From NCBI GenBank assembly GCA_902775485.1, contig CACYMJ010000005.1, positions 1 to 64,000 of the forward strand: a stretch of 64,000 nucleotides of DNA. The letters are read 5' to 3'. Position numbers and translations under genes: made by a program. Of this stretch, positions 147 through 31,473 are shown piece by piece. Position 1 is the first letter of the stretch. Each line of letters begins with the position of its first letter. The notes below the pieces were generated by a model, which saw only the letters and a list, made by a program, of their open reading frames with translations, was not told where the DNA came from and ran no database searches. The DNA comes from an uncultured Lachnospiraceae bacterium. Lineage in GTDB: Bacteria; Bacillota; Clostridia; Lachnospirales; Lachnospiraceae.

Positions 147-225
147 CATAAAAGAGCCGACATATTGCGTAATATTCGGCATTTTGTTATGAATGGGAAT
201 AACACTTATCAGGAGGGTTACCGGT

Positions 226-345
226 ATGGGCATGAGCTGGTGGTGGGTTATTGTCACAGCCCTTACGGCAGCAGGCACGGTCGGATGGTATGAATACCAA
301 TACCGCAAGAATGCCAAAAAGGACGATATGATGAACAATGACTAA
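226..345 (+). CDS. 39-residue membrane protein resembling a stand-alone surface-protein anchor
   Basis: The ORF begins at ATG 226, ten bases after a strong AGGAGG (211-216), and encodes 39 residues. It starts MGMSWWW, has one hydrophobic helix (residues about 5-20) and a charged tail ending KKDDMMNND. The MSWWW start, the helix with Ala/Gly and the Tyr/Arg/Lys tail resemble the last 40 residues of the large coiled-coil proteins downstream (for example MSWYWLLL...KMYDKYRER). It is therefore either a real single-pass mini protein or a relic of a deleted paralogue. The clear promoter and ribosome binding site favour expression. No known family or function recognised. There is room neither for a signal peptide nor for an extracellular domain. 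Confidence 0.55.
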   Translation: MGMSWWWVIVTALTAAGTVGWYEYQYRKNAKKDDMMNND

Positions 346-356
346 CGATAGGCACT

Positions 357-378
357 TATAATTGTGACAATGTCACAA
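357..378 (+). promoter_or_regulatory. -10-like box abutting a 17-bp palindrome
   Basis: TATAAT (357-362) is followed immediately by the perfect inverted repeat TTGTGACAATGTCACAA (362-378; 8-bp arms around one base). The palindrome covers the expected transcription start and the ATG at 370. That is the position of a repressor operator. No convincing -35 box was seen. Confidence 0.35.
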
Positions 379-612
379 AAATCGTTTTTCATGGTCCTTT
401 TAAGAAATGACAAGAATGCTCCTAAGCAGCTTAAAAAGGTAGATGATCCTGCAACTCCTCTTGCAGCAGTACCTCTCGAGGAAGGTATGGACCAGAACCG
501 CTTATGGCTTCTCCTTGCGGCAGCAGTTGCAGCAGGTGCAGGAGTATACGGATATGACAGGCACAGAAGGAAAGTCGCAGCAAACGAAGAAGCCAAGAAG
601 TACAAGAAATAA
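370..612 (+). CDS. truncated C-terminal copy of the large surface protein (80 residues)
   Basis: Open from ATG 370 (or GTG 364) to TAA 612. From about residue 20 the product is nearly identical to the C-terminus of the 1383-residue protein ending at 11295: both share the blocks DPATPLA, a Leu-Trp-Leu-Leu start to the helix, GAGVYGYDRHRR and a KYKK end. The first 20 residues (MSQKSFFMVLLRND) match nothing else here, and no signal peptide is evident. It looks like the 3' end of a lost tandem paralogue, left after recombination. No Shine-Dalgarno precedes it. A TATAAT seven bases upstream of the ATG would give a leaderless mRNA if used. Whether a stable protein is made is unknown. Confidence 0.5.
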   Translation: MSQKSFFMVLLRNDKNAPKQLKKVDDPATPLAAVPLEEGMDQNRLWLLLAAAVAAGAGVYGYDRHRRKVAANEEAKKYKK

Positions 613-1381: not shown

Positions 1382-1693
1382 ATGGAAGAAAGACGTAATA
1401 TATCGCGAGTTGATTATTCTGCAAAGGGCGTTGTCGTTATATGCGACACGGGCGAGAAGTACATGGTTGAGACCAAGGACGTCTCCCCGCTCGGTATGGG
1501 ACTGATCATGCCGCCGGAGACACCTGACATCGTCGGCAAGGACATAATAATCGTTGCGAGCACGCTGATAATGTACTCGGACGTTAACCGCCAGGTGAAG
1601 AACGCGGACGGAACCTACACGGTAGGTATTCACGCAAGGCAGTTCACGCCGGAGGTTTTGCAGTATCTTTTCCGGCATATTGCGGACGAATGA
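1382..1693 (+). CDS. single-domain PilZ protein (c-di-GMP receptor)
   Basis: A 103-residue protein that is almost entirely one PilZ domain. It has the arginine motif RRNISR near the N-terminus and the DVSPLGMG motif (D/NxSxxG) about 30 residues later, the two c-di-GMP contact motifs of the family, then beta-strands and a terminal helix. ATG 1382 is chosen over the in-frame GTG 1373 because AAAGGTGA (1369-1376) sits at Shine-Dalgarno distance. Such stand-alone PilZ proteins transmit c-di-GMP levels to motility or surface machinery by protein contact. It lies just upstream of the surface-protein locus; a direct link is only a guess. Confidence 0.75.
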   Translation: MEERRNISRVDYSAKGVVVICDTGEKYMVETKDVSPLGMGLIMPPETPDIVGKDIIIVASTLIMYSDVNRQVKNADGTYTVGIHARQFTPEVLQYLFRHIADE

Positions 1694-1708: not shown

Positions 1709-1735
1709 AAAAAGGCTCTTTGAGCCTTTTTTTAT
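1709..1735 (+). terminator. intrinsic terminator after the PilZ gene
   Basis: 10-bp stem AAAAAGGCTC/GAGCCTTTTT (1709-1718, 1722-1731) with a TTT loop and a T-rich tail. Confidence 0.8.
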
Positions 1736-1887: not shown

Positions 1888-4353
1888 ATGATAAAAAATG
1901 TTAAAAACGACAAGGTAATACGTGCTATCACGATAGGTCTGGCGACCATGATAGCTACGTCGGGTGCGCCTGTTTCGGTTTTTGCCTCTGAAGGCGAAGG
2001 CGAAGCTGCCAATCCGCCGGAAGCAGCTCCGGAGACGGTTTCAGAGAGTACTCCCGCTGAGGAGAGCAGCGCGAGTGAAACGGTTGTTGAGGCTGATAAC
2101 AGCGCAGTTGTTGAAGAGGCTAAGAATCTTAGCGACATGGTAAGCAATGATGTGACTCCCGTAGTCGGAGCTATAGATCAGGCTGCCGTTGAGGTCGTAC
2201 CGATGACGGATCTGTTAAGCGAAGAAGGTGCGGCTGCGATCGATGCCGATCTTATGGCTGCTGCAGATCTTATAGATAAGGACGCAACCGAAGCTGATGC
2301 GCTCGGAAATCTTGCTTCCGCTCAGGATAATGTCAGCCAGGCGATCGTTATCGCAAATGCAGCGGATGATCTTGTTACTGCCGGAAATGCTGCACTTGAT
2401 ACAGCGGACGAGGATGGCAAGAACTTCGCGGACAGAATGGAAGATTTTGACACGGCGGCAGGAGATGCATCAGGTCATGCCGATGAGGCCATAAATCAGG
2501 CAGAAATTGCTAACAAAACGGCCCAGAGTCAGGGCGAAGCCGTAGAGGCGAAGGAGAAGGCCAAGGAAGAACTTGATACAGCAGAGGAAGGCCTGTTCGT
2601 TGCCGTTAACGAATACAATGCAGCCCAGGAAGCTGTTATAAATGCACAGAGTGAGCTTGAAGAGGCCATGGAGAAGCAGCGTCTCGCACAGGAGAAGCTT
2701 GATGCGGCAAGAGCTGATCTTAGCAAGGCCGGAATGGATGCAAACGCAGCAAATGAGAAGATGAAGGCTGCACAGGCCAAGCTCCAGCAGATCAAGAAGG
2801 ATGAAGAAAAGCTTGAGCAGAATGCCCAGAAGATGGAGGCTATCGAGAAGCAGACATATGCGATGATGGTCCAGTACTTCAGGGATGCCGGAGCTGCCGT
2901 ATATAATGAGGACGGATCACTTAACATCGAAGCGTCCGCGAACAAGATGTCGCAGGAACAGATCGACAGTAAGGCAAAGAGCGCCAGCAACAACGTCATG
3001 ATACTTGGCAGAGACCTTCTGCAGAAGATACTTGATTACAAGCTTTCAAACGATCCGAATGTCGACTGGAGCACGCTTGAGATCGGTAAGGAAGAAAGAG
3101 ACGCCAAGGGAAAATTGCAGACAGTCCACAAAGAGGCCCGCGAAGGCACGGTATTTGAGTCGGGAGACCTTGTAAATAAGAAAGATAAGGACAGCAAAGG
3201 TCAGGATCAGGTTGTTATAAGCACCGACCGTTCAAGCCGCGGACGAAATGATAAGGACCTGAAGGCGAAAGAGGATACGGGTGTTAACTGGTTTAACTCA
3301 AACCAGGGCGATTCCGGCAGGACCAACAGAGTCAAGGTAACATACAAGGATAAGGAAGGCAACGAGCATACCGAGTATTACAACTATGTATTTAAGCAGT
3401 CGAAGCTTGACGGCGAGACCGATATAGCAAACAGCCCCGTATTTGTTGCCCAGATAAATGAAACATCCAGCGGATGGGTAGTGAGCGAGGATCCGAACGT
3501 GGATCTGGATGATTACGGTACGGTCAAGCAGAAAGTGGCCGAGGCAAAGGCTACCATCAAAGAGTACAATGAAGCCGTCAGCGCGGTTGACGAGGCCCAG
3601 AAGAAGGTTGATGAGCTCGAGAAGAAGATCAAGGGTCTTAGCGACATAGTATCCAAGACCGGCCTTGACGGCTCAAGGATACAGGCACTTCAGGACAGGC
3701 TCGATGAAGCCAACGAAGAGCTTGATGCGGCAAAAGAGAAGAAGGAAGCACTTGAGGATAAGGTTGCAGAGGCCAAGAAAGCCTACGATAGCATTGATCT
3801 TTCAAGATTTGACGTAAAACCTTCGGAGTCGGGCGCGGCGGATGAAGCAGCCGATGAAGCCGGTGACGGTGATACAGCCGAGACTCCGGCCGAGGCTCCT
3901 GCAGCAGCACCGGTATTTACTGCTCCTTCAGCAGCCCTTCCGACAGGCGGTGCAGCTCCTGCCATCACTCCTTCGGTATCTGCAGGTATAGATGAAGCTA
4001 TCCGCGAAGCAATAGATGGCGCTTCCGGCGCTGCAGGCGGTGCAGCTGCCGTAGAGGCTGCAGGCGGTGCGGTATTTGCTGAAGCAGCAGGTCAGGCTGC
4101 AGCAGGTGAAGAGATTGTTGTTTCCCAAAATGGCGGATCGATCGAGACAGATATGATAGATGAAGGCGAAAACCTTGTAAGACTTGAAGACGGCGCAGTA
4201 CCTCTTGCCGAGATGTCCAACCTGATGGGCGAGGACAGCGTTGAGCTTAACTGGTGGTGGTCACTTATCATCACGCTCTTCGGAGCAGCCGGCAAGGCAA
4301 TGTACGACCGCAACAGGAAGAGAAAAGAAGCCAGAGTAAAGGCTGACAGATAA
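1888..4353 (+). CDS. large coiled-coil surface protein A (821 residues), PLA-type C-terminal anchor
   Basis: ATG 1888 follows GGAGGA (1875-1880). Layout: signal peptide residues 1-33 (KNDKVIRAITIG..., cut after VFA); acidic Ala-rich stretch to about 210; long heptad coiled coil about 211-320; a mixed domain about 321-545 beginning MMVQYFRD, with GRTNRVKVTYKDK and EYYNYVF, shared with the proteins at 4552 and 12208; second coiled coil about 546-650; Ala/Gly/Pro/Glu linker; then VPLAEM (771-776), a WWW-led membrane helix and a basic tail (RNRKRKE). There is no LPXTG; the tail resembles the VPLA element that precedes sortase motifs in some Clostridia, which is my comparison. Likely an extended cell-surface fibre anchored in the membrane or wall. 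Function unknown. A sigma-28-like promoter suggests co-expression with flagella. Confidence 0.75.
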   Translation: MIKNVKNDKVIRAITIGLATMIATSGAPVSVFASEGEGEAANPPEAAPETVSESTPAEESSASETVVEADNSAVVEEAKNLSDMVSNDVTPVVGAIDQAAVEVVPMTDLLSEEGAAAIDADLMAAADLIDKDATEADALGNLASAQDNVSQAIVIANAADDLVTAGNAALDTADEDGKNFADRMEDFDTAAGDASGHADEAINQAEIANKTAQSQGEAVEAKEKAKEELDTAEEGLFVAVNEYNAAQEAVINAQSELEEAMEKQRLAQEKLDAARADLSKAGMDANAANEKMKAAQAKLQQIKKDEEKLEQNAQKMEAIEKQTYAMMVQYFRDAGAAVYNEDGSLNIEASANKMSQEQIDSKAKSASNNVMILGRDLLQKILDYKLSNDPNVDWSTLEIGKEERDAKGKLQTVHKEAREGTVFESGDLVNKKDKDSKGQDQVVISTDRSSRGRNDKDLKAKEDTGVNWFNSNQGDSGRTNRVKVTYKDKEGNEHTEYYNYVFKQSKLDGETDIANSPVFVAQINETSSGWVVSEDPNVDLDDYGTVKQKVAEAKATIKEYNEAVSAVDEAQKKVDELEKKIKGLSDIVSKTGLDGSRIQALQDRLDEANEELDAAKEKKEALEDKVAEAKKAYDSIDLSRFDVKPSESGAADEAADEAGDGDTAETPAEAPAAAPVFTAPSAALPTGGAAPAITPSVSAGIDEAIREAIDGASGAAGGAAAVEAAGGAVFAEAAGQAAAGEEIVVSQNGGSIETDMIDEGENLVRLEDGAVPLAEMSNLMGEDSVELNWWWSLIITLFGAAGKAMYDRNRKRKEARVKADR

Positions 4354-4370
4354 GATTTTAAAACCTACAG

Positions 4371-4404
4371 GAACACCCGTAATTGCGCGGGTGTTCTTTT
4401 TTTT
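4371..4404 (+). terminator. intrinsic terminator
   Basis: GAACACCCG (4371-4379) pairs with CGGGTGTTC (4388-4396), 8-nt loop, followed by a run of eight T. Confidence 0.85.
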
Positions 4405-4480
4405 GCCCGCAGGGCATGAAACCTCCCGTGTCATTATGTGACATATTATGTCTACTGTGATTTTTATTTTGATTTTCCGT

Positions 4481-4507
4481 TAAGTTTTCATACATATGTG
4501 ACGATAT
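4481..4507 (+). promoter_or_regulatory. sigma-28-like promoter of the 754-residue surface protein
   Basis: TAAG (4481-4484), 15-bp spacer, GACGATAT (4500-4507). Leader about 38 nt to the ATG at 4552. Confidence 0.55.
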
Positions 4508-4551
4508 AAATAATGTGTGAAGGATAACAAGCCACTACGGAGGATTATAGA

Positions 4552-6816
4552 ATGAGAAAAAATATCAAAAACGACAAGGTTATAAAGGCGATCACGATAG
4601 GTCTTGCAACAATGATAACTGCAACATCTGCTCCGGTAAGCATTCTTGCCGACGAAGTTGATGGTCAGACAGAACCTGCTGCACAGGCCGGTGCACAAGA
4701 ATCCAATGAAAGCCAGTCTGAAAATACAAACGAGTCAACGGAAGCTGCTCAGACAGCAGGTACCTGCGCGGATATGGCAAGTACAGATGCACCTGAGGCA
4801 GCAGAAGCTGTGTCTGAAGCGGCAGAAGCAGTAGAGAACATCACGGATTTTGTTGATCCCGCTGATCAGGCAGTTGCTACACAGATACAGACAGGACTTG
4901 AGGAAGTATCCGGTGCGATCGAAGCTATCGGCGGCCAGGAAGGTGCTCTTGCAGATGCGTCAGCACTTATCGGGGAAGCACTTGTTGCAGATATAAATGC
5001 TGATCAGGCAGTTGTTACGGCAAATGATCAGCTTGCAGCAACAGAAGCCCAGCAGACAGCTTTTGCACAGGCAGATACAAAGATCGAAGACAATTCACGC
5101 TCAGCTATAGATAATGCGGATGTTGCAAACACAAGCAACGACAGAGCCGAAGCTTATCAGGCAAAGGACGATGCCGAGGCAGCTCTTGAGGCGGCAAATG
5201 ACGGACTTACTGCTGCAACGCAGGCATATGACGAGACATCCAAGGCTGTATCCGTAGCAGAAGATGCATACAACAGCGCAGTAGATGAGCAGAAGGCAGC
5301 AGCTGACAAGCTCGCCGAGGCGAAGGAAGCTCTCAAGAATGCCGATACCAACGCTACTGCAGCAAATGAGCGCATGAAGGCCCTGCAGTCACAGATGGAC
5401 AACCTCAACAGTAAGGTTGAAGATCTTGCAAACCAGAAGGAAGACCTTGAGAAGCTCAATGATCTGTACTACAAGCTGATGGTTCACTTCTACAGGGATC
5501 AGAACATCAGATGCGCAGTTTACAACGACAATGGCACACTCAATGTTGAAGCCAGCGCGCAGAAGGCGAAGAATGTCAGCACCAAGACCGCAACCGAGAA
5601 TACATTCAAGGTCGGCAGAGCACTCATGGCAGAGCTCATTGAGTTCAAGCTTAAGGCCAACGGCGTAGATCCCTCCACGATCCATATCGGTGAGGAAGTT
5701 GCCGGAGGAACGAAGAAAACGATGTCTGAAGGAGCGCTTGTCAAGGACGGAAAGAACGACAAGGTCAGCATCGTTAACGAACAGAATATATGGTTCGCTG
5801 ATTACGGCAAAGGAAACGACGGAAGAGGAAACGCGATCAAGGTTACATACAAGGATAAGGACGGCAACGACCATACCGAGTATTACAACTACGTATTAAA
5901 GTCAAAGGATTCCGAGAAGGATCTTGAGAACGGACCCATCTACCTTGCAAAGATCGATATCAATGCAACGGGCGAAGATATGGTATCCCGTGATACGGAC
6001 GAGAACAACATGGACGACCTCAGAAATCTCAACGCCAGGATCGCCAAGGCCATGAAGGCAGCTCAGATTCTTGATGAGTATGCAGCAGCAAAGGCGGAAG
6101 TTGATGAGGCAGCAGCACTCGTTGACGAACTTACGGCAGCTATAGATAAGCTCAACAAGACCGATATCAAGATCAGCGCCGAGAAGGTTGAAAATCTTGG
6201 AAAGGCTCTTGAGAAGGCACAGCAGGATCTTCAGGCTGCATCAGACAGAAAAGCCGAGCTTGAGGACAAGGTTGCCGAAGCTCAGGCAGCAGTTGATGCT
6301 ATAGATCTTTCAAGATTTAATATAAGCGATGCAGCAGCTCCCGCAGCAGAGGAAGCAGAAGATGCTCAGGCAGCTGAAGAAGCAGGAACAATAGGCGGAA
6401 CGGCTGTATTGGTAGCAACTCTTGCAACTCCCGCAGAAGCAGCTTCCGAAACAGCAGACGCGGTTTCATCTGAAGCAGAAGCAGCAGCCACAGAAGGCGG
6501 CGCGAGCGCAGCAGCAGTTCTCGGAGCAAGAGTTGATGAGTCTGCACCGGAAGCTGAGGAAGCCGGAGTAAGCGAGAGACAGATCAACATTGACATCGAT
6601 GAGAAGATCGAAGAAGATGAGAATGCAAATGATAGGATAGACGGAACAAAGAAGAACGTCAGGATAGCAGACAACATGATCCCTCTTGCACAGATGCCTT
6701 CAGAGACAGACAGCATCAGCTGGTGGTGGCTTCTTATCATCGCCCTCCTCGGAGCAACCGGAAAGGCAATGTACGAAAACTACAAGAACAGAAAAGAAGA
6801 AGCCCAGACAAAGTAA
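4552..6816 (+). CDS. large coiled-coil surface protein B (754 residues), PLA-type C-terminal anchor
   Basis: ATG 4552 with GGAGGA (4538-4543). Paralogue of the protein at 1888. Signal peptide 1-33 containing KNIKNDKVIKAITIG, cut after ILA; acidic Ala/Glu region; coiled coil about 202-303; conserved central domain about 303-490 (LMVHFYRDQ, then IKVTYKDKDGNDHTEYYNY); coiled coil about 493-587; Ala/Glu-rich linker with a VLGAR element; IPLAQMP at about 710; a WWW-led hydrophobic helix and a basic tail (NYKNRKEE). The central domain is shorter than in the paralogues. Very high Ala/Glu content, no enzyme motif. Expected outside the cell, held by the C-terminus. Function unknown; adhesion, spacing or S-layer-like roles would all fit. 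Confidence 0.75.
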   Translation: MRKNIKNDKVIKAITIGLATMITATSAPVSILADEVDGQTEPAAQAGAQESNESQSENTNESTEAAQTAGTCADMASTDAPEAAEAVSEAAEAVENITDFVDPADQAVATQIQTGLEEVSGAIEAIGGQEGALADASALIGEALVADINADQAVVTANDQLAATEAQQTAFAQADTKIEDNSRSAIDNADVANTSNDRAEAYQAKDDAEAALEAANDGLTAATQAYDETSKAVSVAEDAYNSAVDEQKAAADKLAEAKEALKNADTNATAANERMKALQSQMDNLNSKVEDLANQKEDLEKLNDLYYKLMVHFYRDQNIRCAVYNDNGTLNVEASAQKAKNVSTKTATENTFKVGRALMAELIEFKLKANGVDPSTIHIGEEVAGGTKKTMSEGALVKDGKNDKVSIVNEQNIWFADYGKGNDGRGNAIKVTYKDKDGNDHTEYYNYVLKSKDSEKDLENGPIYLAKIDINATGEDMVSRDTDENNMDDLRNLNARIAKAMKAAQILDEYAAAKAEVDEAAALVDELTAAIDKLNKTDIKISAEKVENLGKALEKAQQDLQAASDRKAELEDKVAEAQAAVDAIDLSRFNISDAAAPAAEEAEDAQAAEEAGTIGGTAVLVATLATPAEAASETADAVSSEAEAAATEGGASAAAVLGARVDESAPEAEEAGVSERQINIDIDEKIEEDENANDRIDGTKKNVRIADNMIPLAQMPSETDSISWWWLLIIALLGATGKAMYENYKNRKEEAQTK

Positions 6817-6858
6817 TTAAAACTCATTAAATATAATCCTCATCACACACACAAAAGG

Positions 6859-6882
6859 CAGTCCCGAAAGGGGCTGTTCTTT
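6859..6882 (+). terminator. intrinsic terminator
   Basis: CAGTCCC/GGGGCTG stem (6859-6865, 6870-6876) with a GAAA tetraloop and a T-rich tail. Confidence 0.75.
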
Positions 6883-6964
6883 TATTGAAATTATTTGAAC
6901 CTTTTTGCCTTTGCCGTACGTCTTTATTTACGAAGTCCAAAATCACAATGCAACATAAAATGCG

Positions 6965-6993
6965 TTGACATTCAATATGTTGTACTGTAAAAT
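6965..6993 (+). promoter_or_regulatory. sigma-A promoter of the 1383-residue surface protein
   Basis: Perfect TTGACA (6965-6970), 17-bp spacer, TAAAAT (6988-6993). This differs from its three paralogues, which carry sigma-28-like elements. Leader about 145 nt. Confidence 0.7.
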
Positions 6994-7143
6994 GGACAGG
7001 AGTAATATATTTAGATTCTGATATAAAGGAACGCCCGTAACACTGAGCCTTGACTATCACGTGCTTTTCGAAAGGAAACACAGAAGCCAAAGCTCTTTTT
7101 TTGTTCAAAAGAGGGGTTACGAAGGATCATCAGGAGGAAAGAA

Positions 7144-10100
7144 ATGAAGAAGAACACCGGAAATAAAAAGGTAATGCGTGTTATTGCTTGCGCGCTTGCT
7201 ACCGCAGTAGCTGTAACAAGTACGCCGGTTGCCACCCTTGCGGATGATAACGCGGAGGAATCGGCAAAAAGATCCGAAGGTTCTACTATTGTAGTAGAAA
7301 ACCTCACGTTGGATTTCTCATCAGGCAATCTGAACTCTGAATCAAAGAATGCAGTTACTGAGACTGTAAACGCAACCAATGCGGCTGCAGATGCCGAGAG
7401 TGCAGCTGCAGCAGCAACTGCAGCTGCAACACAAGCGAGTACAGCAAAGACCGCTGCCGAGACAGCTGCTGCAAATGCCGAGACGGTAGCAGCTGCAGCA
7501 CAGACATTGGCGAATGTTGTTTCAGGTGATAATAAGACTATAGATGTGGATACACTCACGAATCTTTCAGCGACTACATCCGGTGTAGGCACCGCAAACG
7601 GTTTGATAGATGCAGCGCAGACGGCGGAAGGATCAGCAGACAGTGCTGTATCAACTGCCAATGGAGCAATTGCCACATACAACGCTGCAGTAGAAGCAGC
7701 AAACGGAAAAATCCAGGCAGCAAATGATTCCAAGGATACAAAAGATGAATCCGGCAAAAGCGTTTCCGGAACAGATCTTCTGATCCAGGCGGCTAATACC
7801 GCACTTACCGGCAAAGACGGTGTTGAAGATAAAGTTAAGGCAGCACAGGATAATTATGTTTCATCGCAGACTATTAAAGAAGTTAAACAGGCTGTATCTG
7901 ATGCGGCTGAAGCATACACGGATGCTGATAAAGAAGCCAGAGGCAAGCTGGATACCATCAATAAAAACCTTACAACAGCACTGACGGGAACGGATATAGT
8001 TAAAGATGCAAAGGAAGCAGCAAGCGGAGCCGAAACAGCAAAAGGCGAGGCGGAGACGCATGATAAATCTGCGCAGACAGCACTTGAAAAAACCGAATCA
8101 AGCTATAACGAAATTGTAAAGCTGGTAAATGCAAACAGCCATGATGTAAGCGCTGCGAATAAGTTCGCTCAGGATGCCACTTTGGCAGCGCAGGATGCAA
8201 GACAGGCTGCAAATAATGCTGAAGCTGCTGCTAAAACAGCTGCAGCGGCTGAAGCGATAGCAAAAGGGAAAGTTGATGCTGCAAGCGGTGCAGTTAAAGA
8301 TGCTGTTGAAGCGCTTAAGGCAGCAAAGAGCATATACGGTTCCGCATATAATGAAGCCAAGGGTAAGGCTGATACTGCAGATGAACGTGTAGAGGACCTG
8401 ATCGGGACAAATACTAAAAAGGGCAAGATCGATATCGCAAATGAAAAGATTCAGGCGGCGCTTGATGCGATAGACAGCTATAACAAAAATGAAGTCAAGA
8501 ATGCTAATGACGCTATAGCACAGACGAACCGTCTTATCCAGGAAGCATTAAATGCTATAGCGGCATTGGATGACAGTGATATGAACGCTAAAAAACAGAC
8601 GGCGGATGGTTTGATCACTGCTGCAGGCACGGCCGGGGATGCTGCTGTTACAGCGATGGGAACAGCCGGTTCTGCTCTTGCAAATGCTAAGAGCGCTTTG
8701 GAGACCGCACTTACAACTCTTGGTACTGCAAAGGACAGCTATGATGCTGCTGTTAAGGATAAGAAGACAGCAGAGCAGTATGCCGCTGATGCAAAAACAG
8801 CATCGGATAAAGCTGATGAACAGGCCGGAATCGCAAATGCACAGTATCTGGCTGCTGTAGATAAAGATGGTGTCGTTAAGGATTATCTTGCTAAAGCAAC
8901 CAGTGATAACGGGGATAGTTATGAGATCCTTAAGAATAAGGCCGCTAATGCAAAAAGTGAATTCGATAAAGCATCACAAGCAAAGGACGGGGCGGATGCT
9001 GATGTCATAAAAGCACAGAACAACAAGATCAGCGTTGATACGGAACAGGATAAGAAAATCGGTGAGTACAATACGACTATCACCAATAATACTAACGCTC
9101 TCGGAACTGCAACAACCGGGGGATTATACAAGCAGCAGGCCGATCTCGAAAAACAGATAGGCACATACTCCGATACTATTAAGACTTATGAGGGTTATAT
9201 AAACAATAATCCTGACTTGATCAAACAAAAGGAAGCTGAAATTACCGAAAAGAACAGGATATATAATGAAGCTAAGCAGAATACACTAGAAAAACAGGCT
9301 AAATATGATGATCTTCCCGAATGGAGAGTGGTCTCTCGCGCGGCTGCTTGGTTGGAATTGCAGGATGCAATATACGAGGAAGGCAAGCTTGAGAATCAAT
9401 ATAATGAGTTGGTTCGTCAGAAGAAAGAACTGAATGATAACCTTGAAACTGCTAAGGCGAACATTGCTACCGTAAGGCAGAATAAAAGTAATGCGGAGAC
9501 GACAAAGCAGCAGGTTAATTCGGATATAAGTACTGCCGAAGGTAATATATCACAGGCCCGCAAAGATATAGAAACAGCGAAGTCTGAGAAGAGCAAAGCA
9601 CAGAGCAAATTAGAAGAAGCTCAAAGAATTCAGGGGTTAGCTGCTGATGATCTTGGCAAAAAGACAAAAGCATTAAACACCGCGAATGAGAACCTTAAAA
9701 GGGTGGATGATTTTGTAGCAACAGAAGACAATACACTTGTGATCAACGAAGAGAAGGCACAGATGATCCAGCGGATCATAAGCCAGTATGGTACGGACTA
9801 CACTGAGTTTGATCCGGAAGACTTCTCGTATATTGCTATGAATGCTGATACAGACGCATACGCCATAGACATGTCGGGAACGGCTATAGGTGATGGAATC
9901 GGACATGTCATTAACTTCTTTGGTAAGATCTTTACCGGTCATGATGTTGTAGACGATAAAAAGAATGCGAGAGAGCAGGCTGTTGAAGCCAAGTACGGAA
10001 ATACAGGAAACGTTCTTGTATACTGGGATGATACTTCAAGGAAGCTTGTTGACTGGACATCGGTCGATGAACAGAATCTTGAAAATATGAAAAAAGTGGT

Positions 10101-11295
10101 AAGCAAGGAGTGCGTTATAATCTGTACGGATGTTAAGAGACTCTCCGAGATCAAGGCATCACTTGCGGTTATTGATGCACTTGATGCGAAGAAAAATGCA
10201 GCAACTGCCCAGGGTCTGGCAAATGCGGCACTGACTAAAGCAAATGCCGAAAAGGAAAAAGAAAAGACAGCACTTGCCGCATATAATGGTGCAAAGACCA
10301 GATTGAGCAACGCTTTAAACAGCTTTGATACCAATAACAATCTTAAACTTAAGAGCTACGCCAAGAAGTCATATGCAAATGCATTCACGCCAGTTGAAAC
10401 TGTAAACTCAGACAGTCTTGTAGGTAAGTATACAAATACGATACCTGAAGCTGATGCAAAAGAGTTGAAAGTTCCGGAAAAGATCGCGGATGCAGATAGA
10501 CCGACAAAGACCACTCGTCTTGAAGAGATTAATTTTGATAACCTTATCAGTTTGTTAGAGTCAGGGGCTGAAGGCAAAGCGTATGATGCATTCATTTCAG
10601 ACCTGAAGGATCTGATGAAGGATGAGACTATAGCTCCAATGATCGAGAACCTCATAAGCGCTCATAAGCAGCTTGAAGAGGCAAAGAAAGAGTATGCAGA
10701 TGCTCAGGCTGACAGCAAAGCAGCAAATGATTTCTGGGAAGCTGCCAAGAAGAAAGCAGATGATGCAGAAGATTTAGCTAAAAAAGCAGTCGAGCTGGCT
10801 AAAAACGTACAACCTGCAAGGGATGATGATGACGATGATGACGGAGGTTCATCTTCAGATGGACCCGCAACAGGTGGATCAGATACATATACGCTTCCTT
10901 CGGGAATTACGGTTATACCTCTCGCAACAGCACCTTCAGGTGTTGCGGGCGTAAGAACAGGCAGAAGAGTAGCCTCAAGAGCAGTATCGGATAATTCAGG
11001 CGTTCTCGGTGTTAAGGCTGAGGAAACAGATGATACAAAGAAGAATGTGGTCGATGAGAAGAAGGACGATACCAATAAGGATGATATCAAGAAATCCGAA
11101 GATGGAAGCAACAAGCTTACGAAGGTAGCAGATCCTGCGACTCCTCTTGCAGACTCACCTTTCGAAGAAGGAGCTAACATGAACTTACTGTGGCTTCTTG
11201 CAGCAGCTGTAGCAGCAGGCGCAGGTGTATACGGATATGACAGGCACAGGAGGAGAGTTGCAGCCGACGACGAAGCCAGGAAGTACAAGAAATAA
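7144..11295 (+). CDS. giant coiled-coil surface protein C (1383 residues), PLA-type anchor
   Basis: ATG 7144 preceded by AGGAGG (7131-7136). Signal peptide about 1-31 (MKKNTGNKKVMRVIACALATA..., cut after TLA), a different version from the other paralogues. Residues about 60-850 are Ala/Asn/Lys/Glu-rich helical coiled coil. Residues about 855-1000 form a non-coiled domain with many aromatic residues (ISQYGTDYTEFDPEDFSYI, later NVLVYWDDTSRKLVDW) that I do not recognise. More coiled coil follows, then an Asp-run linker near 1226, GVRTG and VLGVK elements, DPATPLADSP, a hydrophobic Ala-rich helix and a KYKK tail. It lacks the central domain of the other three. The C-terminus is duplicated at 370-612. 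Probably a very long surface fibre; function unknown. Confidence 0.75.
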   Translation: MKKNTGNKKVMRVIACALATAVAVTSTPVATLADDNAEESAKRSEGSTIVVENLTLDFSSGNLNSESKNAVTETVNATNAAADAESAAAAATAAATQASTAKTAAETAAANAETVAAAAQTLANVVSGDNKTIDVDTLTNLSATTSGVGTANGLIDAAQTAEGSADSAVSTANGAIATYNAAVEAANGKIQAANDSKDTKDESGKSVSGTDLLIQAANTALTGKDGVEDKVKAAQDNYVSSQTIKEVKQAVSDAAEAYTDADKEARGKLDTINKNLTTALTGTDIVKDAKEAASGAETAKGEAETHDKSAQTALEKTESSYNEIVKLVNANSHDVSAANKFAQDATLAAQDARQAANNAEAAAKTAAAAEAIAKGKVDAASGAVKDAVEALKAAKSIYGSAYNEAKGKADTADERVEDLIGTNTKKGKIDIANEKIQAALDAIDSYNKNEVKNANDAIAQTNRLIQEALNAIAALDDSDMNAKKQTADGLITAAGTAGDAAVTAMGTAGSALANAKSALETALTTLGTAKDSYDAAVKDKKTAEQYAADAKTASDKADEQAGIANAQYLAAVDKDGVVKDYLAKATSDNGDSYEILKNKAANAKSEFDKASQAKDGADADVIKAQNNKISVDTEQDKKIGEYNTTITNNTNALGTATTGGLYKQQADLEKQIGTYSDTIKTYEGYINNNPDLIKQKEAEITEKNRIYNEAKQNTLEKQAKYDDLPEWRVVSRAAAWLELQDAIYEEGKLENQYNELVRQKKELNDNLETAKANIATVRQNKSNAETTKQQVNSDISTAEGNISQARKDIETAKSEKSKAQSKLEEAQRIQGLAADDLGKKTKALNTANENLKRVDDFVATEDNTLVINEEKAQMIQRIISQYGTDYTEFDPEDFSYIAMNADTDAYAIDMSGTAIGDGIGHVINFFGKIFTGHDVVDDKKNAREQAVEAKYGNTGNVLVYWDDTSRKLVDWTSVDEQNLENMKKVVSKECVIICTDVKRLSEIKASLAVIDALDAKKNAATAQGLANAALTKANAEKEKEKTALAAYNGAKTRLSNALNSFDTNNNLKLKSYAKKSYANAFTPVETVNSDSLVGKYTNTIPEADAKELKVPEKIADADRPTKTTRLEEINFDNLISLLESGAEGKAYDAFISDLKDLMKDETIAPMIENLISAHKQLEEAKKEYADAQADSKAANDFWEAAKKKADDAEDLAKKAVELAKNVQPARDDDDDDDGGSSSDGPATGGSDTYTLPSGITVIPLATAPSGVAGVRTGRRVASRAVSDNSGVLGVKAEETDDTKKNVVDEKKDDTNKDDIKKSEDGSNKLTKVADPATPLADSPFEEGANMNLLWLLAAAVAAGAGVYGYDRHRRRVAADDEARKYKK

Positions 11296-11320
11296 TTAAA
11301 CTGGTAGCATATGATTTTCA

Positions 11321-11345
11321 CAGCGGGCCATGGCCCGCTGTTTTG
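11321..11345 (+). terminator. intrinsic terminator
   Basis: 20-bp perfect palindrome (11321-11340; CAGCGGGCC/GGCCCGCTG arms) followed by TTTTGTT. Confidence 0.75.
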
Positions 11346-11347
11346 TT

Positions 11348-11376
11348 ATGACATTCGGAAGTTTATCCGATATAAT
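11348..11376 (+). promoter_or_regulatory. sigma-A promoter
   Basis: ATGACA (11348-11353), 17-bp spacer, TATAAT (11371-11376). It points at the hypothetical gene at 11499, with a leader containing a broken small reading frame. Confidence 0.5.
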
Positions 11377-11498
11377 AGAATATAGGTATTACAACTTTGG
11401 GGGTATATAATGAACAGCGAGATAAACATGACCGGATATATGCCGTGGCGAAGAAGATCAACCCGATGAAGAGCTTTCTCGGGATGAAATGAGGGATT

Positions 11499-11912
11499 AT
11501 GGACTTTAAGTACTGCAGGATCCAGGGAAAAGAGCTTGCCGCCAACACGCGTACTGGCAAGGGGATATTCAGTATGCTCAACCAGCTCGTCACGAACGGC
11601 GTGATGGAAGAAGAGGATGTAGATCTGTTCCACGAGATAGATTCGTGGTTTGCCGAAGAGCTTCCGTGGCCTCCGCAATGTAAGCGCCAGGAGAAGGTCA
11701 TCTGCTACTTCAAGGTCGAAAATTCCGAGATGATGATGAAGATGATCAGGCCGCTCCTGTGGCTTCTTGAGCGCTATGAACACCCTTACTATGTCGTATA
11801 TACGAACTTCCCGGGGGAGATCGTATATGAGGACGAATACCAGATCGTGGTTAAGGTTGATGAAAACGTTGTGATAGAGGACGTTCAGGCAAATTGGTCA
11901 CCCAAAGACTGA
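11499..11912 (+). CDS. hypothetical soluble protein (137 residues)
   Basis: ATG 11499 with a weak, close ribosome binding site (AGGG 11492-11495). The product has no signal peptide or membrane segment. It mixes helices with a C-terminal beta-rich part (HPYYVVYTNFPGEIVYEDEYQIVVKV) and carries the acidic run MEEEDVDLF. I do not recognise the family. The gene stands alone between terminators inside the surface-protein locus, so a role there is possible but unsupported. Confidence 0.5.
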   Translation: MDFKYCRIQGKELAANTRTGKGIFSMLNQLVTNGVMEEEDVDLFHEIDSWFAEELPWPPQCKRQEKVICYFKVENSEMMMKMIRPLLWLLERYEHPYYVVYTNFPGEIVYEDEYQIVVKVDENVVIEDVQANWSPKD

Positions 11913-11969
11913 ATAATATACAAAAATAATCACATTTATCGAAGAAAATCACGCAATGTGCACAAAAAG

Positions 11970-12004
11970 ACAGCTCCTGACAGGAAAATCGGGGGCTGTT
12001 TTTT
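11970..12004 (+). terminator. intrinsic terminator
   Basis: ACAGCTCC (11970-11977) pairs with GGGGCTGT (11992-11999), including one G-T pair, followed by TTTTT. Confidence 0.65.
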
Positions 12005-12133
12005 ATACTTTAGCGTAGTAGAGCGATAATACGGTACAACAAAGTAGTAAAAATATACAGTCACAAAACAAAAAAATTGTGATTTTGGACGAAATTTGTG
12101 AACCTTTTTTGATCCTTTTGGTGTCATTATAGT

Positions 12134-12159
12134 TAAGAGAAGGAAAATATTGTCGATAT
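12134..12159 (+). promoter_or_regulatory. sigma-28-like promoter of the 814-residue surface protein
   Basis: TAAG (12134-12137), 14-bp spacer, GTCGATAT (12152-12159). The stretch AGTTAAGAG is identical to that at 1753-1761 upstream of the first paralogue. A hairpin TGTGAA/TTCACA (12168-12183) would lie at the very 5' end of the mRNA. Confidence 0.5.
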
Positions 12160-12207
12160 ATTAGTTGTGTGAATGGGTTCACAGATTCAGAAACCGGAGG
12201 ATATAAA

Positions 12208-14652
12208 ATGAGAAGAAACATTAAGAACGACAAGGTTATTAAAGCGATCACGATCGGTCTTGCTGCCATGATAGCGGCAACGAGTACGCCTATCGATGCT
12301 TTGGCAGATGACCTTGGCACGGATGAGAATGTATATAATGATGATGACGCAAAGGAATCGTCCGAGCAGATCTCCGAAGCGCAGGAGAGTGCTCATGAGC
12401 TTGAAACGGTAGTTGAATCGTCGGCGCCTGTTTCTGATGGAACAACGGAGCAGGGAAATGTAGTTGTTACAGAAGGCCTGATCCCTGAAGTTAAGACTGT
12501 ACTTGATACAGCTACAACTGATACGGTTCCTATGCTTGAAGAGATAAAGCAGGATATCGCCGAGGGAGAGAAAGAAGTTCTCGAAGTCCAGAAGGATCTC
12601 GAAGAACTGTCGACCGGAGAAGATGCAGAGAAGCTTGCAGCACTTAATGAGCAGAGTGATGCCGTAGAGCAGAGCTTCAAAGAATTGGAAGATGCTCTTA
12701 ACGCTGATGCGCTCGCTTTCGAAAACAAAGGTGTTGCAAATACATGGAATGGGACAAAGGATGATGTCAAAGGCACATTCATTTCCCATCAGAAGAAAGA
12801 TGGTGTAAACATTGTTGATGCGAACGGCAAAGAGATTATTGCTACATCAAACAAAACGCAACTTACTAATGAGTATTATGATCTGTACTGGGCCGGCATA
12901 CAGGCGGTAGAGAATGGTGATAAAGCTGCGGCACTGGATAATCTTGAAAAATCAAAGGCTGCTCTTGGAACATCAAAGGCTGCTCTTGACGCTGCTAAGG
13001 ATCTTTACATTGCAGCTGATAACAAGGCTAAAGAGGCAGAGGCGGCTGCTGAGAATATTGAATCCCTTCAGAATGCAATAAAAGATTCACGTGCGGCTGA
13101 AGCAGCTCTTAAAGCAGCGCAGGATAGAGCAGCTGTGGCTGTGGCCATTAGAGATCAGTATGATGCTATGCTGGTTGAGTATTACAGAGGCATTCTTGAT
13201 GGTAATAAAGCTTTTGGTGATGATAAAGTCCTAAATCCTGATGAGTGTGCAAGTCGTATTGCCAATGATAGTAATTTGCTTGCCAAGGTGGATGCATATG
13301 CAGCTAATGGTAAGTCTCAAACATTTATGGAGCTTGGAAGATACCTCCTCGAACAGGCTGTCAAAGAAAAAATCATGAACGATGAGAATGTAGACTGGGA
13401 GAGTGCAGAATTTGCTTTCGGAGTCGAGGTTAAAGATGCAAAAGGAAACCTAATCACTACACCCAATCAGATCGGACGTCAAGGCGTTGTTTATAAGAAT
13501 AAAGCCGGATATGATCAAGTAAACGGCAAGGCAGGAGAAACAAAAAACTACAGCAGATCAAAGAACTCTGTTGTTGCGAATGATACAGGAAGAACCAACC
13601 GCTTCTTTGTCACCTATAAGGATAAGAACGGCGAGAACCATACCGAGGGATATAACTATATTATCAAATCCTCCCAGGATGGTTCCGGGGAAATTAAAGA
13701 TGAAAGCGGAGCAGTTACCGGACATACACTTACTCAGGATGATCTGAAAAACGGAATAATCTTCTTCGCTCAGATAGGAGGAGACGGAACAATCACGCCG
13801 CTTAAAGTTGACTTAAATGCCAAAGTTTCCGATGTTCAGAGACAGCTTAAGGAAAAAGCTGATGCAGCAGCTAAAGAGGCAGAGGAACTTCGTAAGCAGA
13901 TTGAGAATATTGGCAGGGTGGCAGCCGTCAGAAAGGAACTTGATGATCTTAAAAAGAGATATGATGATGCTGAGAAAGCATATATAGAGAGTGTAAATAG
14001 TAAAAACACACTTGAAAAGCTGATAGGTTACATGAAGGATCCTGTTGAAGAACCCGGCGAAGACGTAACACCCGGTGAAGACGTAACACCCGGTGAAGAC
14101 GTAACACCCGGTGAAGACGTAACACCCGGCGGAGACGTAACACCCGGCGGAGACGTAACACCCGGCGGAGACGTAACAGATGATTCCGATGACGGAGATT
14201 CTGATACATCTGATGGTACAGGTGACACAACTCCCACACCTTCAACTCCTGTATTCGATCCGGGAACAGGAGCGATTACGATCCCCGGTTATGATGCACC
14301 GATAGTGCTTCCTGATTATACTCCTTCTGGTGTTTTAGGTGTCAGAACCGGTGGCGGTAACGGCAACTTCGGCGGTGGAAACGAAGAAGGATCAGGAGCA
14401 GGTGAAGGATTCACGGTTGCAAGCACAAACAGGATCAAGCTTCCTGCTAATCCTGTGATCAAAAACAAGAATAATCTTGTAAAGATCAAAGACAGCGAAA
14501 TACCTCTTGCTGACATCCCTATGATGGATGAAGAAGGTGTAGAGATGAGCTGGTACTGGCTTCTCCTTATCTTCCTTCTCGGAGCAACAGGCAAGAAGAT
14601 GTACGATAAGTACAGAGAGAGACAGGAAGCTAAGAACAATATTCAGAAGTAA
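12208..14652 (+). CDS. large coiled-coil surface protein D (814 residues), PLA-type anchor and 6-residue repeat
   Basis: The frame opens at 12169, but ATG 12208 is chosen: GGAGGA (12196-12201) precedes it and the product then begins MRRNIKNDKVIKAITIG like its paralogues. Signal peptide 1-33; acidic region; coiled coil about 245-320; conserved central domain about 320-530 (MLVEYYRG, then FFVTYKDKNGENHTEGYNY); coiled coil about 535-605; seven copies of PG(E/G)DVT (616-657); Asp/Thr/Pro linker; GVLGVRTG; IPLADIP from 765; membrane helix starting WYWLLL; basic tail. Same architecture as the proteins at 1888 and 4552. The repeat probably acts as a length-variable stalk. Surface location inferred; function unknown. 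Confidence 0.75.
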   Translation: MRRNIKNDKVIKAITIGLAAMIAATSTPIDALADDLGTDENVYNDDDAKESSEQISEAQESAHELETVVESSAPVSDGTTEQGNVVVTEGLIPEVKTVLDTATTDTVPMLEEIKQDIAEGEKEVLEVQKDLEELSTGEDAEKLAALNEQSDAVEQSFKELEDALNADALAFENKGVANTWNGTKDDVKGTFISHQKKDGVNIVDANGKEIIATSNKTQLTNEYYDLYWAGIQAVENGDKAAALDNLEKSKAALGTSKAALDAAKDLYIAADNKAKEAEAAAENIESLQNAIKDSRAAEAALKAAQDRAAVAVAIRDQYDAMLVEYYRGILDGNKAFGDDKVLNPDECASRIANDSNLLAKVDAYAANGKSQTFMELGRYLLEQAVKEKIMNDENVDWESAEFAFGVEVKDAKGNLITTPNQIGRQGVVYKNKAGYDQVNGKAGETKNYSRSKNSVVANDTGRTNRFFVTYKDKNGENHTEGYNYIIKSSQDGSGEIKDESGAVTGHTLTQDDLKNGIIFFAQIGGDGTITPLKVDLNAKVSDVQRQLKEKADAAAKEAEELRKQIENIGRVAAVRKELDDLKKRYDDAEKAYIESVNSKNTLEKLIGYMKDPVEEPGEDVTPGEDVTPGEDVTPGEDVTPGGDVTPGGDVTPGGDVTDDSDDGDSDTSDGTGDTTPTPSTPVFDPGTGAITIPGYDAPIVLPDYTPSGVLGVRTGGGNGNFGGGNEEGSGAGEGFTVASTNRIKLPANPVIKNKNNLVKIKDSEIPLADIPMMDEEGVEMSWYWLLLIFLLGATGKKMYDKYRERQEAKNNIQK
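14053..14178 (+). repeat. seven tandem 18-bp repeats coding PG(E/G)DVT
   Basis: Seven consecutive 18-bp units; units 1-4 encode PGEDVT and units 5-7 PGGDVT, with near-identical DNA (cccggNgaagacgtaaca type). In frame within the surface protein, so gain or loss of units would change stalk length without a frameshift. Confidence 0.95.
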
Positions 14653-15772: not shown

Positions 15773-15810
15773 CAGGATATACGTTATAATAAGACGTAAA
15801 GGAGATGGCG

Positions 15811-16968
15811 GTGACACAGGGAATCAATCTCATGGCTGTGTATATAGCGGATTTTGTCGGAGTATTGCTGCTCGGGCTTATTCTGCTTGCACGCGGATGG
15901 GATCTGCCCGGAAGGAGGGATGAGTCGCGCATACTCCTGATACTTATAATCGCAACGATCATTGACTGTCTGATAGACCCGTTCATATTCATTATGGACG
16001 GCAGACCGGGTAAAATAAGGCACGCTGTGGCGTTTATCGGTAATTCGGCGCTGTTTTTGTATAACCTTATAGTCGGGACCGGGGTCATGGCGCTTATCGT
16101 CAAGCACATCAACAAGAAGGTCTCGCGTTTCCAGTATATAACCGTCTGGATAATGACAGTCATGGAAACCGCATTGATTGTCATCAATTTCTTCACTCCG
16201 GTTATCTTTTCAATCGATGAGAATAACGTCTACAGCAGGGGTCCGCTCTACTTTATCTATATCGCAGTTGCGGCATATCTTCTCGTATACAGCATGTATG
16301 TATATGTGACCGGACGGATAAAGGACGGGTCGCTGAGGTATTTCCCCGTATGGGAGTTTACTATCCCGATAGTATGGGGAGTGACCGTACAAACGCTGAT
16401 CTACGGGGTATCGACCCAACCGGTCAGTTTCGCGCTCGCTTTTGTCAGCATTGTTTTCTGCCTTCAGAAGGAATACCTGTATGTAGACAAATTAACGGGC
16501 GTATATAACAGATACGAGCTCGAGAAGATCATCAGATACTATATCAGAAAGAGAAAGCGCAGGTTCGCTGCGCTCATGCTCGATATGAACGGGTTTAAGG
16601 CCATAAACGACGACTATTCCCACAAGGAAGGCGATGAGGCTCTTAAGAGCATGGCTTCGATCCTGTTATCGATCGTCGGGAACAAGGGTAATGTCATCAG
16701 ATTCGCCGGTGACGAATTCGTCGTGATTATGGATTCGGTGAAGGATGATACGGTCGATCGCATGAGAGAGCTTATAGAGAATTCGCTTATAGAATATAAT
16801 GCCAGAAGCGGAAAACCGTACAAGTTGTCCGCGTCGGTAGGCGGTATGATCTTTGAAACGGAAGATGCGGATGATGTGATCAACCGGATCGACAGACTTA
16901 TGTACGATGCGAAGGTTGAATATTACAGAACCCACGATAGAAGAAGCGTAGGACAGGCTGCGCTATGA
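15811..16968 (+). CDS. membrane-bound diguanylate cyclase (GGDEF)
   Basis: Seven or so hydrophobic segments (residues about 8-225) followed by a GGDEF domain that makes c-di-GMP from two GTP. The domain opens with DKLTGVYNRYELE; the active-site loop is AGDEF (299-303), an accepted active variant, and no RxxD inhibitory site is evident just before it. ATG 15805 is directly against GGAG (15801-15804), so GTG 15811 is the better start. The membrane part has no domain known to me and presumably senses an extracellular or membrane signal. With PilZ, HD-GYP and flagellin genes in the same window it fits control of motility versus attachment. Confidence 0.75.
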   Translation: MTQGINLMAVYIADFVGVLLLGLILLARGWDLPGRRDESRILLILIIATIIDCLIDPFIFIMDGRPGKIRHAVAFIGNSALFLYNLIVGTGVMALIVKHINKKVSRFQYITVWIMTVMETALIVINFFTPVIFSIDENNVYSRGPLYFIYIAVAAYLLVYSMYVYVTGRIKDGSLRYFPVWEFTIPIVWGVTVQTLIYGVSTQPVSFALAFVSIVFCLQKEYLYVDKLTGVYNRYELEKIIRYYIRKRKRRFAALMLDMNGFKAINDDYSHKEGDEALKSMASILLSIVGNKGNVIRFAGDEFVVIMDSVKDDTVDRMRELIENSLIEYNARSGKPYKLSASVGGMIFETEDADDVINRIDRLMYDAKVEYYRTHDRRSVGQAAL

Positions 16969-28942: not shown

Positions 28943-29338
28943 ATGGGCGAAACGATCCGTCTGAAATGCAATGATTGCAACAAGGCTTATGATCTTAACA
29001 TCGGACAGGGGATTAAGGATAATTCCCTTGACCGTATACTTGGGTACTTTGACGGAGTAACATCCGATATGATCAGCAGGAAGCTTTCCGTTCTCGGAAC
29101 AAAAAAAAGCTGGTCATTTCGCAGGATGATCGGATACTGCAGTTCATGCAGATCTTTTCGGGAGATCCCCACTTTTCACATTTTTGAAGACCAGAAGGAA
29201 TATGTTACGGCCACAAAGTGTCAGTGCGGCAGTACATGTGAGCTTATCGATGATAATGATACGGATGCAATGGGCAGCATCATCTGTCCCGAATGCGGCG
29301 GTAAGATCAGCTCATCGATAACGGCAATGTGGGATTAG
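28943..29338 (+). CDS. multi-cysteine zinc-ribbon-like protein preceding flagellinolysin
   Basis: 131 residues, cytosolic (no signal or membrane helix). It has Cys pairs in the pattern of zinc ribbons: CNDC (9-12), CSSC, CQC and CPEC, so two ribbons are likely. Initiation region CAGGGATGGGAA then ATG. It is the first gene after the sigma-28-like promoter and ends 11 bp before the flagellin start, so it is cotranscribed. Its function is not known to me; position suggests a helper for flagellin production, metal loading or regulation. Confidence 0.55.
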   Translation: MGETIRLKCNDCNKAYDLNIGQGIKDNSLDRILGYFDGVTSDMISRKLSVLGTKKSWSFRRMIGYCSSCRSFREIPTFHIFEDQKEYVTATKCQCGSTCELIDDNDTDAMGSIICPECGGKISSSITAMWD

Positions 29339-29349
29339 GCAGGGAGAAT

Positions 29350-31395: not shown

Positions 31396-31427
31396 ATATA
31401 GTGTACGGCACGGAAGCCGGCAGTGAC

Positions 31428-31441
31428 CGGGAAGGATCCCG
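31428..31441 (+). promoter_or_regulatory. leader hairpin with GGA in the loop (CsrA-type site)
   Basis: CGGG/CCCG stem with loop AAGGAT (31432-31437); an extra A-T pair would leave AGGA as the loop. It starts about 26 nt into the predicted transcript, the same place as in the first flagellar leader. Confidence 0.45.
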
Positions 31442-31454
31442 ACAGGAAATGCAG

Positions 31455-31473
31455 ATGCATATGTGATATGCAT
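31455..31473 (+). repeat. inverted repeat in the second flagellin leader
   Basis: ATGCATAT-GTG-ATATGCAT, perfect 8-bp arms, ending 21 nt before the TTG start. It could form a hairpin just upstream of the ribosome binding site. Confidence 0.6.

Follow-up and report, generated by a model that had tools for sequence, protein, structure and literature searches.

A tandem family of coiled-coil proteins with PLA- and tryptophan-rich tails accompanies a stand-alone PilZ gene in Lachnospiraceae

The stretch analysed here, which we call the window, comprises the opening 64 kb of contig C5 from the draft genome (2.33 Mb, 84% complete) of an uncultured, rumen-type Lachnospiraceae bacterium, and carries four tandem open reading frames (ORFs) on the + strand, P1 to P4, that encode predicted secreted coiled-coil proteins behind a gene for a stand-alone PilZ protein. 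We put at about 0.6 the probability that these proteins are membrane-tethered stalks of a motile/sessile programme, tied to cyclic di-GMP (c-di-GMP) by a dedicated PilZ protein. The genes, their tails, the PilZ motifs, the adjacency and co-occurrence of the two gene families and the promoter matches are all read directly from sequence. To our knowledge, the routes from c-di-GMP to surface behaviour in Gram-positive bacteria of the gut and rumen are known for few cases, and a single-domain PilZ together with a membrane-tethered coiled-coil family in 15 sampled genera represents a directly testable candidate pathway.

The PilZ gene (1382..1693, + strand, 103 amino acids) was identified from Pfam PF07238, its motifs and its co-occurrence with the coiled-coil tail. 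It sits just beyond the interval covered by the initial annotation, which made no mention of it. RxxxR and [DN]xSxxG, the c-di-GMP motifs of PilZ domains, are present in the window copy as RNISR and DVSPLG and are both kept at 36/36 loci of this PilZ subfamily, from which the stand-alone protein is predicted to bind c-di-GMP. A search of 99 relatives returned 18 loci in 17 genomes (16 from the home genus, and G059 with two), and a search of 397 genomes of the family returned 22 loci in 20 genomes, or 18/334 genera; the source genome has three PilZ matches in total at E 0.01. For co-occurrence, we used a tail profile (A8) made from home-genus rows only and a PilZ profile (A5) made from home-genus rows plus G059, and scored 394 genomes, i.e. 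the 397-genome family sample minus G000, G025 and G059. In statistics that ignore shared ancestry, 13 of these genomes have both PilZ and the tail (17 with PilZ, 18 with the tail) where 0.78 would be expected (Fisher p 2.7e-17), the weak tail matches in G111, G365 and G408 being counted as tail-positive, contrary to our own reading of them. Collapsed to 332 genera, the counts are 16 with PilZ, 17 with the tail and 13 with both (p 1.7e-17); within the home genus they are 16, 15 and 13 of 37 (p 1e-5), the coiled-coil count there leaving out G005, G019 and G033, which have short tail proteins only. The 15 genera with the pair are made up of 13 outside the profile genomes, the home genus and the genus of G059.

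At most loci the two genes are also neighbours. We read 36 PilZ neighbourhoods, 18 from the search of 99 relatives and 18 further ones from the 397-genome search, and at 28 of them a coiled-coil gene on the same strand lies next to PilZ or is separated from it by one gene (16/18 and 12/18, respectively). At 22 of the 28, the W-rich tail itself could be seen; elsewhere the contig ends (G004, G006, G028, G033), a run of N splits the gene (G314) or, in G309, the PilZ-linked protein (L185, 3574-6213) finishes in an SPKTGD sortase-type anchor with no W-rich tail. The frame next to PilZ in G337 ends after 273 codons, close to the end of the contig, and a tail is found on another contig. Eight loci (G034, G009, one of the two in G059, G028, G314, G286, G337 and G185) have a gap of about 40 bp or less between PilZ and the coiled-coil gene; in the window it is 194 bp, with a terminator-like hairpin inside. 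Among named genomes, the sheep-rumen Lachnospiraceae metagenome-assembled genome RGIG6664 (L036) carries three homologues in a row, likewise preceded by this PilZ gene. No c-di-GMP riboswitch was matched by Rfam at gathering thresholds in the window or in L036, L070, L072 and L075.

The four coiled-coil proteins end in a similar way. The tails of P1 (4201..4350, found by tail profile and alignment), P2 (6682..6813), P3 (11143..11292) and P4 (14503..14649), the last three found by tail profile and all on the + strand, bear the motifs PLAEMSNL, PLAQMPSE, PLADSPFE and PLADIPMM, respectively, preceded by T in P3 (TPLA) and by I in P2 and P4 (IPLA), and continue into a helix led by WWW, LLW or WYW and a basic tail. 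None contains PxTG. The initial annotation had described just such PLA-to-tryptophan ends without TG, and all four tails bear this out; its statement that the helix begins with W or WWW holds for P1 (WWW) and fails for P3, which begins LLW (PLADSPFEEG..LLW..). The home-genus consensus reads roughly (V)xIxDNEVPLAxMPxxxxxxMSWWWLLIIxLLGATGKxMYDxxxKKxEA, with variants that show PGA, PAA, AGA or PGS instead of PLA. PxTG is found in 0/24 aligned tails and is absent from 42/43 coiled-coil proteins listed (44 before one false match in L186 was dropped), the exception being G309. The core W-x7-GxxG-x3-Y runs gap-free across 23 chosen tails, with W8, G16 and G19 invariant and L10 and Y23 at 90% or more; it is present in P1, P2 and P4, and P3 retains W-x10-G-x3-Y only. 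By Kyte-Doolittle, the membrane segments of P1 and P4 have a 19-residue mean below 1.4. Across 16 genomes, one per genus, mean pairwise identity of the membrane segment is 53.8% (120 pairs), against 21.3% (91 pairs) for 14 TG-bearing sortase tails (13 NF033073 ends and G309, leaving out the TG-less L129, L130 and L137 and second copies per genome), a comparison that is only indicative because both sets were gathered by profile and then hand-picked. Conservation this strong favours a transmembrane anchor that is retained over a new processing signal: the segment probably stays in the membrane, and we read it as a helix that makes specific contacts there.

The nearest described relative of these ends is the NCBIfam family NF033073 (LPXTG_double), which shares with them, as judged by eye, the '(V)xIxDxxVPLA' unit, the membrane helix and the basic tail. 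P1-P4 all show this arrangement when TPLA and IPLA are included, yet they lack PxTG, and such matches to the model as the family gives are weak (17-24 bits against a cut-off of 48): P4 reaches 18.3 bits, P1-P3 give no match, three of seven further family proteins lie at 17-21 bits and four give none, and one small protein reaches 23.8. Moreover, the membrane segment of the stalk tails is strongly conserved, whereas that of NF033073 ends is variable. At E 1e-5 or better, NF033073 occurs in 17/200 genomes of the family Lachnospiraceae, with 0 matches in the source genome. Of 30 ends fetched, 27 were readable; 24 have TG and three (L129, L130, L137) do not, and most show at least one '(V)xIxDxxVPLA' or PLS unit, e.g. 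NLVLIDDGNVPLAGLPKTGD. Since PLA units occur in NF033073 ends whether TG is present or absent, PLA is a module of the family that can occur in the absence of TG. The non-canonical retention signal that had been proposed for the window thus survives in part: a retained membrane anchor without PxTG is likely, but the PLA motif is not new and resembles the NF033073 unit. For annotators, VPLA-type ends without TG may be membrane anchors and not broken sortase signals. A canonical PLAxxPxTG anchor was also considered; the pattern PLAxxPxTG[DE] is found in 3/99 genomes, never in the source genome, and none of the three matches is a C-terminal anchor. In L039 (G001), a sortase-like protein has LPLAETPETGE in its own N-terminal linker.

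Upstream of their tails, the four proteins are long, helical and related to differing degrees. P1 (1888..4353, 821 amino acids), P2 (4552..6816, 754), P3 (7144..11295, 1383) and P4 (12208..14652, 814) were delimited as ORFs on the + strand and examined by heptad windows and by BLASTP; the P4 frame opens at 12169 (827 amino acids), the ATG at 12208 being the likelier start. Each has a hydrophobic segment at about residues 9-34 preceded by a basic start, as in P2 (MRKNIKNDKVIKAITIGLA), and heptad periodicity exceeds that of shuffles at p<0.05 in 19/55, 18/50, 50/95 and 11/55 overlapping windows of P1 to P4. The description of four proteins of 754-1383 residues with signal peptides and heptad helices is thereby upheld. 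P1 is homologous to P2 (BLASTP 34%, E 2e-87) and to P4 (28%, E 8e-38), the three being alignable over most of their length, and P3 shows homology at its two ends only (against P4, E 4e-8 at the C-terminus and 5e-6 at the N-terminus).

In P1, P2 and P4, heptad windows lie on either side of a heptad-free stretch: the heptad-rich arms span approximately residues 127-350 and 519-660 of P1, 197-336 and 491-602 of P2, and 239-336 and 519-630 of P4. Between them sits a central domain (VTYKDK...EYYNY in P1) that P3 does not have, whose approximate limits, from profile envelopes, are 2830..3531 in P1, 5416..6036 in P2 and 13108..13851 in P4, all on the + strand. The initial annotation could not name this shared domain and neither can we: no sequence match in Pfam, NCBIfam or PDB sequences names it. 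Peptide deformylase gave a weak local match (best E 0.007) that we take as chance, and the remaining matches were to coiled coils only. A profile search among the 99 relatives, as had been suggested, found the domain in 13 genomes, source genome included and all of the home genus, the match in G001 being short and weak; in fetched loci longer than 3.5 kb it appears in 44 ORFs, many of them overlapping copies of one gene, which belong to the home genus except for one in G350. Named genomes contribute a single locus, L036.

The array is larger than first described. Two C-terminal pieces without a front half lie at the contig start on the + strand: at 193..345, what is left of a further family member, namely its WWW membrane segment and basic tail, found by tail profile, and at 352..612 a P3-like tail (TPLAAVPLEEG..LW..), found by tail profile and DNA comparison and 80.6% identical to the P3 tail over 191 bp of DNA. 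These remnants suggest gene turnover within the array. In the whole source genome, the tail profile gives seven matches at E up to 10; six are on the window contig, two of these being the remnants, and the seventh is a 103-amino-acid protein on contig C14 (L011, 1483-1794). The last is one of several small single-pass proteins with PLA or PAA before a membrane helix (also L070, 8627-9079; L072, 6600-7103; L179, 4833-5111; L183, 8836-9168), several of which have a long cytoplasmic part; the L070, L072, L179 and L183 proteins adjoin PilZ/coiled-coil loci, and the L011 protein stands alone on its contig. Between P3 and P4 lies a 137-amino-acid ORF (11499..11912, + strand) with no Pfam match.

The leaders of several of these genes resemble flagellar promoters. 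P1, P4 and several genes of relatives share a stretch of about 40 bp, TTATAGTTAAGAG(A)...[GT][CT]CGATAT, and P2 has a related one. Sigma-28-like promoters precede P1 (1755..1782, TAAG-N16-CCGATAT), P2 (4480..4507, TAAG-N16-ACGATAT) and P4 (12133..12159, TAAG-N15-TCGATAT), and a further such site precedes the 137-amino-acid ORF (11346..11373), all on the + strand. Set against the Butyrivibrio fibrisolvens sigma-28 consensus TAAA-N16/17-MCGATAa, as given in PMC3720852, P1 and P2 fit with TAAG for TAAA, and P4 with TAAG, N15 and TCGATAT. The broader pattern TTAW-N15/16-NNCGATAT has 7 matches in the window where 1.1 are expected, counts that are descriptive because the pattern was set after the coiled-coil and flagellin leaders had been viewed. 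Six are intergenic: they fall before P1, P2, P4, the ORF at 11499 and flagellin 2 (31369) and near flagellin 1 (28837), the other lying inside a gene (23062). The same pattern precedes 12/29 home-genus coiled-coil genes, some of which shaped it, against about 0.55 expected (about 0.02 per gene). Flagellin 1 (29329-31317, 662 amino acids) contains a large insert with HEMTH between intact flagellin N and C regions and is presumably a flagellinolysin; flagellin 2 (31423-32895, 490 amino acids), which follows the sigma-28-like site at 31369, has an insert too. Terminator-like hairpins, matched by consensus only, follow PilZ (1709..1731), P1 (4369..4398), P2 (6857..6878) and P3 (11320..11341) on the + strand.

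Taken as stalks, P1-P4 would be secreted, would span the membrane once and, after removal of the signal peptide, would project from the cell as long coiled coils. In P1, P2 and P4, a small folded domain would sit between the two heptad-rich arms, probably at some distance from the cell; a flexible linker would then lead to the membrane helix (W-x7-GxxG-x3-Y, looser in P3), which would remain in the membrane with the short basic tail inside, the proteins not being handed to sortase. In the home genus, several stalks would be expressed from flagellar sigma-28-type promoters, and across the family the single-domain PilZ companion would bind c-di-GMP and adjust their making, assembly or activity. 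Their likely role would be contact, for example adhesion or a grip on plant fibre or on neighbouring cells. That the proteins reach the surface, stay in the membrane and adhere, and that PilZ binds c-di-GMP and controls them, is what we infer.

Could the tail instead be a true sorting signal, cut by an unidentified enzyme or serving as a TG-less sortase site, so that the proteins end up attached to the wall? We consider this improbable. No columns of the 24-row tail alignment are better conserved than the A and P of PLA (23 and 22 rows), the motif is like that of NF033073 sortase anchors, in which repeats of it often precede TG, similar tails occur on short proteins, and the source genome has three sortases, class B by our reading of their TLSTC site, one of which adjoins a VPKTGES protein. 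Yet PL[AS] is found in 21/29 tails of the home genus and 7/14 elsewhere (PLA is kept in most of the former and half of the latter), compared with 22/29 and 12/14 for the W-x10-G-x3-Y core, and the distance from PLA to the helix varies; a membrane segment that is discarded after cleavage would not be expected to be so conserved. Nor do sortase counts separate tail-bearing from tail-less congeners: sortases occur in 37/37 congeneric genomes, 18 with the tail and 19 without, so that the co-occurring sortase which the initial annotation proposed to look for is present irrespective of the tail. No processing enzyme that tracks the tail was found in a search confined to sortases.

Several observations weigh against our own proposal. 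The window PilZ scores slightly below the Pfam cut-off for PF07238 (22.0 against 22.5 bits, with two relatives at 20.6 and 14.2), and 8/36 PilZ loci lack a coiled-coil gene next to them (G007, G018, G115, G153, G211, G430 and G350 twice), although in G153 one lies about 2.9 kb away, in G350 the two are on different contigs, and in G211 the contig ends about 0.7 kb on. Conversely, G123 and G436, as well as the weak matches in G111, G365 and G408, carry the tail without this PilZ subfamily. The hairpins after PilZ, P1, P2 and P3 mean that these genes need not form one operon in the window. Sigma-28-like sites precede only 1/14 coiled-coil genes of other genera, the P3 leader has none, and the textbook consensus beats shuffles at p<0.05 in 3/15 leaders (P2, L036b and L085), P2 alone among those of the window, the best L085 site differing from the shared leader site. 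The SPKTGD end of the PilZ-linked protein in G309 also speaks against PilZ acting on the tail there; it suggests that the final location of the proteins is the surface, with the tail as an exchangeable anchor. Finally, the pair or its neighbouring operon lies by rpoBC or rpsL-fusA (named from sequence) in G009, G105, G279 and G363, and joint loss of one linked locus may therefore explain part of the co-occurrence. Pushed further, this becomes the idea that the adjacency is an old, often lost stretch in which PilZ works for the flagellum or for a machine resembling a type IV pilus, the coiled-coil proteins being a separate matter. In those four genomes a pilus-like operon does adjoin the pair, flagella are a target of PilZ proteins in other bacteria according to PMC6366702, and PMC3720852 reports that the flagellar locus of Roseburia and Eubacterium includes a pilZ gene, not necessarily of the subfamily in the window. 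But the pair is kept at other sites, the window shows neither rpo/rps nor pilus neighbours, G153 holds the partners about 2.9 kb apart and G350 on different contigs, and the tail is present in 13 of the 17 genomes with PilZ that were not used for the profiles, so we regard an old shared stretch as an unlikely full account. Less probable still, the stalks might act on their own envelope, for instance by steering wall hydrolases or cell separation, rather than in adhesion. A Hydrolase_2/CC_PcsB wall hydrolase lies immediately upstream of PilZ in G025, with a like gene, by eye, in G003 and G031, and at 10 loci a lipoprotein gene borders the coiled-coil gene; set against this, the hydrolase was noticed at just 3/36 PilZ loci and not in the window, and copy number and length are highly variable, unlike those of a core division protein.

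A bolder version of the stalk proposal is that c-di-GMP-loaded PilZ docks directly on the GxxG-x3-Y-basic signature, switching the stalk outside the cell or its secretion or clustering. We rank this contact below the broader proposal because of the sortase-type tail in G309, which weakens it, and think it doubtful. If true, such docking would represent a new c-di-GMP effector module in monoderm bacteria, and a case of inside-out signalling to an adhesin without protease, riboswitch or sortase.

Further neighbours were recorded as far as the fetched stretches extended. In the window, a linked GGDEF protein (15805..16968, + strand, 387 amino acids, from Pfam and BLAST relatives) has relatives of 63-66% identity near the arrays of G025, G003 and G031, a linkage that is weak evidence because the window holds a second GGDEF gene. 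In G314, G286, G105, G363, G279 and G009, a pilus-like gene set (T2SSF, with T2SSE confirmed in G009) and a transglutaminase-like lipoprotein adjoin the pair, as identified by Pfam or BLAST, and in some of these six an extracytoplasmic-function sigma factor and a GGDEF-like membrane protein stand beside it. The latter (L072, 1527-2288; L228, 14971-15684; L183, 4228-4944; L230, 4651-5433; L120, 2617-3342) reads RNGGNEF in 5/5 aligned sequences, from G009 (the genome whose copies were run against Pfam), G105, G279, G363 and G019, and is probably inactive as a cyclase; no PilZ of the subfamily was found in G019 in the search of 99 relatives. The lipoprotein that adjoins coiled-coil genes, in ten genomes, belongs to a nameless family (..WAlYNxxGeLxxExxtDIs..; e.g. 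L171, 9335-9868). Elsewhere in the window, 25164-28826 encodes a 1220-amino-acid protein with a Glug motif, in which a signal peptide and a membrane segment at the C-terminus were recognised by eye, and 40127-42499 a 790-amino-acid protein whose N-terminal TIR domain (Pfam TIR_2) is followed by a long C-terminal part.

How, then, does this candidate system compare with those already known? No published description of a PilZ and coiled-coil stalk pair was found in the open-licence literature searched, in keeping with the earlier suggestion that the system is possibly undescribed; the PLA motif is not new in itself, resembling the NF033073 unit, and the evidence supports a coiled-coil family without PxTG that we found described nowhere. 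SEC10/PgrA (TIGR04320) and Antigen I/II are coiled-coil surface proteins of Gram-positive bacteria with long helical stalks. P1-P4 share these stalks, P1 and P3 matching TIGR04320 weakly in their heptad regions (20-25 bits against a cut-off of 70), but have no LPXTG, and their central domain has no named relative. In Gram-negative bacteria, LapD, LapG and LapA place adhesins under inside-out control by c-di-GMP; the likeness lies in a c-di-GMP receptor in the cytoplasm that is coupled to a giant surface protein, whereas here the candidate receptor is a PilZ protein and the anchor a single membrane helix. A clostridial parallel is Clostridioides difficile, where, according to PMC6366702, sortase-anchored adhesins (CD2831 and CD3246) and a release protease (ZmpI/PPEP-1) are controlled via c-di-GMP riboswitches. 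Both cases tie surface proteins of clostridia to c-di-GMP; in C. difficile, riboswitches and a protease act on sortase-anchored proteins, whereas here a PilZ gene goes with genes for proteins that would be tethered to the membrane.

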